A model generated the notes under the pieces. It searched no databases. It was not told the origin of the DNA and saw only the letters and a list, made by a program, of their open reading frames with translations. Positions 15,668 through 16,393 of a DNA stretch of 35,685 nucleotides are shown piece by piece (position 1 is the first letter of the stretch; each line of letters opens with the position of its first letter). A program made the position numbers and the translations under genes. The DNA lies in the NCBI GenBank assembly GCA_030248885.1, contig JARCMD010000400.1:1-35685 (forward strand), given 5' to 3'. Origin of the DNA: Leptolyngbyaceae cyanobacterium MP9P1.79 (GTDB lineage Bacteria > Cyanobacteriota > Cyanobacteriia > JARCMD01).

Positions 15668-15722
15668 GGGTCAAACTCCTTTCAGAAAATCCCTTGCATC
15701 ATCACTAAACGCGATCGGCAAA

Positions 15723-15776
15723 GGTGTGGATCAGATCTGAGTGAGCTTGACGGGCAAAAGACCACACCAAGCTCAC
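15723..15776 (-). promoter_or_regulatory. Pseudoknot-capable hairpin in the exporter leader
   Basis: In the minus-strand transcript GUGAGCUUG (15776-15768) pairs with CAAGCUCAC (15749-15741), giving a 9-bp hairpin. Its loop begins GUGUGG (15767-15762), which is complementary to CCACAC (15729-15724) just downstream. The loop pairing would make a pseudoknot, or, if the hairpin opens, a competing 7-bp helix (GGUGUGG with CCACACC). Lying between the riboswitch aptamer and the start codon, it is the obvious candidate for the expression platform. Confidence 0.5.
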
Positions 15777-15795
15777 TTCGATCGCGCCTCAAAAA

Positions 15796-16047
15796 GGCAA
15801 AGGTCGATGGTGAACTTAGTGAAAGTCTCGCTTGCAAATAAATAGTGGATTAGCTGTTAGTGACGCATTGCAATCAATGCATCACAGCTAACATTTGATG
15901 ATTAATCAGTTGAAGTAGTAAATAAATTAATTCACCGATGATTAATGATCAAACTCCCCGTATCAACTTGTCATCTAAACCAGGATTTATTCCAGTATGT
16001 TGATTTAGATGGGCTGGCACTACGCCAGCAGCTACTCCCCTTCAATA
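15796..16047 (-). promoter_or_regulatory. yybP-ykoY family manganese riboswitch
   Basis: Reading the minus strand from 16047, the leader gives GAAGGGGAGUAGCUGCUGGC, then a GCUGGC/GCCAGC hairpin, then AUCAACAUACUGG. GGGGAGUAGC (16040-16031) and the (G/A)UCAACAUAC segment are the two signatures of the yybP-ykoY aptamer as found in the E. coli mntP and alx leaders. The 3' signature GACCUUUGCC ends at 15796; its CCUU can close the P1 helix with the 5' AAGG. The part between is longer than usual and carries an extra hairpin (15856-15892). The element sits upstream of a Mn2+ exporter gene, the classic target class. The manganese response is known for the family; its operation here is inferred. Confidence 0.8.
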
Positions 16048-16053
16048 ATTCTG

Positions 16054-16082
16054 ATTATAGTAAATTTACGCGAGAGAATCAA
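16054..16082 (-). promoter_or_regulatory. Sigma-70-type promoter of the manganese exporter
   Basis: On the minus strand TTGATT (16082-16077), a 17-bp spacer and a perfect TATAAT (16059-16054). Transcription would start near 16047, only a few bases before the riboswitch GGGGAGUAGC, exactly where the leader should begin. This mutual fit supports both calls. Confidence 0.75.
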
Positions 16083-16148
16083 ATTAAATTTTCCAATCTT
16101 AATCTTTAGCAAAATCAAGATGCCCATTGAGGCACTATTCTACCTTTA

Positions 16149-16291
16149 GGCGATGTGCAACTTAAAGTCTGCCCTCATCCCCTAGCCCCTTCTCCCAACG
16201 GGGGAGAAGGGGAGCCGACCCAGTTTTAGCTCCTCTCCCCTTCTGGGAGAGGGGTTGGGGTGAGGGCGGTTCGGGAAAGTTGCACATCGCC
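16149..16291. mobile_element. Family A MITE, complete copy
   Basis: A 143-bp non-coding element with long terminal inverted repeats GGCGATGTGCAACTT and AAGTTGCACATCGCC. The flanking octamers TACCTTTA (16141-16148) and TACCTTTG (16292-16299) match at seven of eight bases, consistent with an 8-bp target duplication. The interior has the same CCCTCATCCCC...CCCCTTCTCCC hairpin core as the copy at 1846-1982, but the ends are different. It lies between the divergent promoters of the manganese exporter and the SLH-like lipoprotein gene, about 70 bp behind the exporter's -35. Confidence 0.88.
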
Positions 16292-16393
16292 TACCTTTGC
16301 AAAGATTATGAGCTACGGGAGGCCGTTTCAACTGACGATGATCTGCGCTAGCGTAGAGAATGATTGGTGTTCACTTCTTTTTTCTAACTCGCT

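Follow-up and report, generated by a model that had tools for sequence, protein, structure and literature searches.

Cyanobacteria need large amounts of manganese for photosystem II, yet an excess of the metal is toxic to them. As to how the metal is sensed in these organisms, ManSR is the only system named by a review and by a study from 2024 (PMC7020235, PMC11649195), and in Synechocystis 6803 the transcript of the exporter gene mnx is unchanged under Mn excess (PMC11649195). The mntP leader of E. coli is an established Mn2+ riboswitch in which the ribosome site is hidden when Mn is lacking (PMC11647493); in an X. oryzae construct, the 3' halves of L1 and P1.1 include GAGACC (PMC6754395); and GDT1/UPF0016 genes are already known to stand under yybP-ykoY riboswitches, according to a passage of PMC7380456 that cites Dambach 2015. 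Our search, which was thin on subscription literature, turned up no publication describing a cyanobacterial Mn riboswitch.

The locus considered here lies on the minus strand of contig JARCMD010000400.1 of Leptolyngbyaceae cyanobacterium MP9P1.79 (GCA_030248885.1), the whole 35,685 nt of which form the window that we analyzed. We propose, with a probability of roughly 0.7, that a Mn2+ riboswitch of the yybP-ykoY class would control mnx as an ON switch, acting mainly at translation. The features of the leader are collected in Table 1.

Table 1. Features of the mnx leader and its gene in the window, in the order of transcription.
Feature	Position	Strand	Basis or remark
-35-like element TTGATT	16077..16082	(-)	sequence reading
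-10 element TATAAT	16054..16059	(-)	sequence reading and positional peak in relatives
P1.1 switch helix, 5' strand UGAAGG	16039..16044	(-)	covariation with 3' strand; paired in unconstrained fold
L1 signature GGGGAGUAGC	16031..16040	(-)	sequence reading; RF00080 match; leader alignment
P2 hairpin GCUGGC/GCCAGC	16013..16029	(-)	unconstrained fold
P3 hairpin	15972..16011	(-)	covariation
L3 signature UCAACAUAC, class metal site	15995..16003	(-)	sequence; metal site per PMC9190785
P4 arm, long and branched here	15834..15970	(-)	fold z -5.0
Extra hairpin within P4	15849..15892	(-)	fold
Aptamer 3' end GCGAGACUUUCA: L1 GCGAGAC and P1.1 3' strand CUUUCA (15825-15820)	15820..15831	(-)	alignment, unconstrained fold
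Strand A, CACUAAGUUCAC	15810..15821	(-)	alignment; overlaps P1.1 3' strand
A-B loop, 33 nt, contains GACCUUUGCC	15777..15809	(-)	longest of 159; median 7 nt
Strand B, GUGAGCUUGGUG; partner A or C	15765..15776	(-)	pairing tests
U4 tract 3' of B	15756..15759	(-)	sequence reading
Strand C, CGUCAAGCUCAC; partner B or D	15741..15752	(-)	pairing tests
Shine-Dalgarno AAAGGAG	15676..15682	(-)	sequence reading; 3' portion within strand D
Strand D, GAGUUUGAC	15670..15678	(-)	direct reading; 9 bp with C 15751-15743; touches AAAGGAG
GDT1/Mnx (UPF0016) manganese exporter gene, 208 aa	15041..15667	(-)	PF01169, E 1.4e-48

The preliminary description of this DNA had placed a TTGATT-N17-TATAAT promoter ahead of the leader and a GDT1/Mnx gene 3' of it, and both are where it said. 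The two hexamers are 17 nt apart (16082-16054), and the placement of the -10 element is backed by 164 related leaders, 62% of which carry a TATAAT-like hexamer 7-20 nt 5' of GAAGG, versus 0-4% at offsets further upstream. At the offset corresponding to the -35 element, the relatives show a weak TT and nothing beyond. Judged from these elements, transcription should start near 16047, about 3 nt 5' of P1.1, which makes a start downstream of 16031 unlikely. Just 5' of the promoter lies a MITE-like repeat (16147-16293) with inverted ends AGGCGATGTGCAACTT / AAGTTGCACATCGCCT and with AAAGGTAG on either flank; the genome holds about 40 copies at 82-96% identity.

From its sequence, the leader between 16044 and 15820 is almost certainly a Mn2+ riboswitch aptamer of the yybP-ykoY class, as had been proposed; the assignment is backed by L1 and L3, the 3' element, the four-way junction, and the Mn-exporter context. 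The preliminary description had taken the lack of an RF00080 match above threshold as grounds for refutation, and at the Rfam gathering cut-off the window indeed gives no match: on the local stretch the model reaches 33.5 bits against a cut-off of 45 (E 1.6e-7, match 16052-15947), with the mnx leader being the single RF00080 match in the 4.9-Mb genome. We judge this threshold to be an unfair test, because RF00080 gives a match in 36 of 116 genomes of the class (that of the window included) and stays under 45 bits in every one of them, and because the E. coli K-12 mntP leader (L208 1462-1558), at 41.6 bits, also falls under the 45-bit cut-off of the Rfam release used. The cut-off is a curation threshold rather than a biological feature; thus, we judged class membership on sequence, structure, and gene context. 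R1, a covariance model of the cyanobacterial aptamer, scores the window at 89.3 bits, with the window itself among the 25 leaders from which the model was built, and it also matches a leader absent from its input, that of E. coli mntP, at an E value of 1.2e-5. We rejected position 15947 as an aptamer boundary, given that the RF00080 alignment stops there because the model is stretched across the long, variable P4. The snoRNA and CRISPR-repeat matches in a permissive Rfam search lay far under their own cut-offs and were put down to chance. What the leader carries is a genuine but variant representative of an established riboswitch class, with an aptamer that scores under the Rfam cut-off and a platform found, in the genomes sampled, in cyanobacteria only.

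The 5' signature GGGGAGTAGC (16040-16031) and a second one at 16004-15995, which reads ATCAACATAC (DNA) or AUCAACAUAC, were both named at the outset and are both present; the first occurs in 144 of 167 leaders, and the L3 form TCAACATAC occurs in 136 of 167. In a Synechococcus-like clade (L025, L026, L135, L165), L3 is UCGACAUAC in place of UCAACAUAC, a substitution that probably replaces the adenosine that binds the metal (by our mapping, A41 of L. lactis) with G, which still offers an N7. Left unconstrained, the minimum-energy fold of 16046-15820 contains P1.1, P1.2, P2, P3, and P4, i.e., the four-way junction of the class, at -70.4 kcal/mol versus -49.1 for shuffles (z -5.3). For P3, 11 of 14 pairs have changed on both sides among 25 leaders, 98% of cells are paired, and none of 500 shuffles reaches the same covariation score. 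After P4, relatives share a conserved element, GCGAGACCUUCAC (GCGAGACYUUCAC), the window's copy of which is GCGAGACUUUCAC at 15831-15819. In the window, P1.1 pairs UGAAGG (16044-16039) with CUUUCA (15825-15820), one of the pairs being a G-U; relatives with UGAAAG have CUUUCA opposite, and those with UGAAGG mostly have CCUUCA. The unusual length that the preliminary description noticed is borne out, the 214 nt from GAAGG to GAGAC being the maximum of 167 leaders (median, 111), and the extra hairpin that it saw is real and falls within the variable P4 arm.

On the 3' side of the aptamer is a conserved four-strand platform, A/B/C/D, as read from aligned leaders. Across leaders, strand A has the motif CACUgAGUUCAC, B has GUGAGCUUGGUG, and C has UCAUCAAGCUCAC, while D lies around the ribosome site as GAGGAGCUUGA; in a subgroup, D lies around the start codon itself, as GAGCAUGA, and C is altered to UCAUGC. 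The A:B hairpin has its own covariance model, R2, with columns separate from those of R1; it matches the window at 15835-15764, and A:B is paired in 98% of cells of the leader alignment. For the other two pairings, we ranked each duplex against 100 dinucleotide shuffles; B:C came in the top 5 in 131 of 159 leaders, and C:D did so in 123. The window's own B:C duplex reaches -21.0 kcal/mol, with 0/100 shuffles as low, and its C:D duplex ranks 8/100 against shuffles. In 107 nonredundant leaders, the pairing advantage of own over swapped strands had z values of -8.8 for P1.1, -9.1 for A:B, -9.2 for B:C, and -15.8 for C:D, with the kinship among leaders incompletely removed; a tree-aware count of C:D co-changes had too few independent pairs and was hence underpowered. 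The C:D preference for own strands persists inside each C-strand class. With the C core CAAGC, D has G[CU]UUG in 39 leaders and G[CU]AUG in 2, and with CAUGC, it has G[CU]AUG in 13 and G[CU]UUG in none.

What might such a platform do? The sequence comparisons demonstrate the aptamer, four strands with covariation, and a linkage to Mn-exporter genes; from these we infer Mn2+ binding and the direction of the response, with a hairpin relay that, at high manganese, probably frees the ribosome site. In this model, Mn2+ would dock L1 with L3 and stabilize P1.1, which would withhold the 5' end of strand A and leave B to pair with C rather than with A. With C taken up by B, C:D would be blocked, the ribosome site in D would be exposed, and Mnx would be made. 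Without Mn2+, A:B would form, reaching over the GAGAC of the aptamer, and the free C would pair with D and hide the ribosome site.

The predicted folds are consistent with the first steps of this relay. In transcripts ending after C, pairing is predicted at 0.74 for A:B and 0.23 for B:C, and withholding the P1.1 3' strand from transcripts of the same length gives 0.88 for B:C and 0.05 for A:B. This switch from A:B to B:C appears in 72% of leaders versus 12% with C shuffled, and in the window it runs from an A:B value of 0.97 in the free transcript to a B:C value of 0.98 with the P1.1 3' strand withheld. Averaged over leaders, the opening of the ribosome site is 0.44 with B:C forced and 0.21 with A:B forced; the gain exceeds 0.2 in 60 leaders, and the reverse is seen in 4. 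In the window itself, forcing B:C leaves the opening of the Shine-Dalgarno sequence unchanged (0.34 vs 0.34). When P1.1 alone is forced in equilibrium folds of the full-length leader, the site barely opens (0.24 vs 0.21), because the remainder of A stays paired with B in a short stem, which together with C:D is more stable. Given these two results, we do not claim a purely thermodynamic switch; the weak opening at equilibrium suggests that the choice would have to be made during transcription or with the help of an early ribosome.

The arrangement recurs widely. Among 390 genomes of the class, R1 matches 181 and R2 matches 182, in nearly identical sets (R1 alone in G113; R2 alone in G225 and G285), i.e., the aptamer and the platform occur together in roughly half of the cyanobacterial genomes sampled. 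The pattern GAGACYTTCACTRAGTYCAC occurs at no fewer than 117 loci across GTDB genomes, and among the matches listed all are Cyanobacteriota. A GDT1 gene lies downstream in 161 of 167 unique leaders; of the remaining 6, 3 are cut by the end of the locus, and the others are L191, L155, and L156. In two independent cases (L191, L155), the downstream gene encodes MntP (PF02659): an uncultured Synechococcales member (L191) has the aptamer and platform before an MntP-family gene, and a Pseudanabaena biceps plasmid (L155, L228, L229) has two identical copies of both before such genes. L156 carries two riboswitch copies 1.1 kb apart (358-1687), the first of which precedes a cytochrome b561-like gene and has a damaged B strand that matches A poorly. 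For three extra copies in multicopy genomes (L213, L216, L226), a simple search for ORFs turned up no long one 3' of the riboswitch. Synechocystis salina (L159), a congener of Synechocystis 6803, carries this riboswitch too. Taken as a whole, we consider it somewhat better than an even bet that cyanobacteria have a widespread Mn riboswitch subtype, below the Rfam cut-off, whose A/B/C/D relay would transmit the decision of P1.1 to the ribosome site or to the start codon.

Could the same aptamer instead act on transcription? Without Mn2+, an extended A:B hairpin (GAGAC.. with GGUCUU) would then be an intrinsic terminator, and with Mn2+ the stabilized P1.1 would break the base of that hairpin and allow read-through, as in L. 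lactis. The overlap of A:B with P1.1 resembles that of the L. lactis terminator (PMC11087558), and 26 of 107 leaders, the window included, have a U4 tract 3' of B, versus 1.6 expected. However, U5 occurs in 3 of 107, about three quarters lack U4, and the conserved C and D, with their covarying pairing to the ribosome site, are left unexplained. Given that U tracts are present in just a quarter of leaders, we do not prefer termination and regard it as unlikely. Less probable by far is a fold that responds to a divalent metal other than Mn2+, or one that in this genome has decayed or is constitutive and regulates nothing; the aptamer and A-B loop of the window are the longest of the set and no Shine-Dalgarno opening is predicted for it, but its L1 and L3 signatures are intact, it retains P1.1, A, B, and C, and such leaders stand before Mn exporter genes from two families that are unrelated to each other. 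Closure of the aptamer by the terminal GACCTTTGCC of the preliminary description is hardly credible: the sequence is present at 15805-15796, UGAAGG:CCUUUG could, on direct reading, form 6 pairs (two of them G-U), and GACCUUUGCC is similar to GAGACCUUGCC, with which the alx aptamer of E. coli ends on its 3' side, but the alignment led us to reject it as the aptamer's 3' signature. The element aligned in 30/30 of the first leaders is GAGACYUUCAC (at 15829 in the window), GACCUUUGCC itself sits in a window-specific insertion of the 33-nt loop (median in relatives, 7 nt), and the unconstrained fold closes the aptamer at 15825-15820. That description holds for the class, the target gene, and the promoter placement, its 3' boundary does not, and the expression platform was absent from it.

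A translational ON switch is the reading that we carry into a comparison with known systems. With the RF00080 class the leader has in common L1 GGGGAGUAGC, L3 UCAACAUAC, the 3' GCGAGAC, the P1.1 switch helix, the four-way junction, and the position 5' of a Mn exporter gene; it differs in that none of the 116 sampled genomes of its class has a match at 45 bits and, in the data sampled, in a post-P1.1 platform that is found in cyanobacteria only. The 45-bit cut-off of Rfam thus hides a subtype that roughly one in two of the cyanobacterial genomes sampled carries. E. coli mntP resembles the cyanobacterial aptamer in its 3' element, GGCGAGACC, and in its R1 match, and alx has GUGAGACC in the corresponding place, the two E. 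coli leaders having a GYGAGACC element in common, to which the GAGACC of the X. oryzae construct also corresponds; the mntP leader gives no significant match to the platform model R2, and unlike the proposed cyanobacterial switch it uses Rho as well. In L. lactis yoaB, as in the cyanobacterial leaders, P1.1 competes with an overlapping downstream hairpin (PMC11087558); in contrast, that hairpin is a terminator, whereas most cyanobacterial leaders lack a U tract and have the C and D strands. ManS/ManR, like the proposed switch, adjusts the Mn homeostasis of cyanobacteria in response to Mn (PMC7020235), but it is a protein sensor that represses the importer genes mntCAB and not an RNA acting on an exporter. 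If our model is true, the leader would be a cytoplasmic sensor of Mn excess for the exporter Mnx, and it would help to explain the unchanged mnx RNA of Synechocystis 6803 under Mn excess, which is compatible with a translational switch. An RNA switch on the exporter would then be a missing excess sensor beside the import-controlling ManSR.
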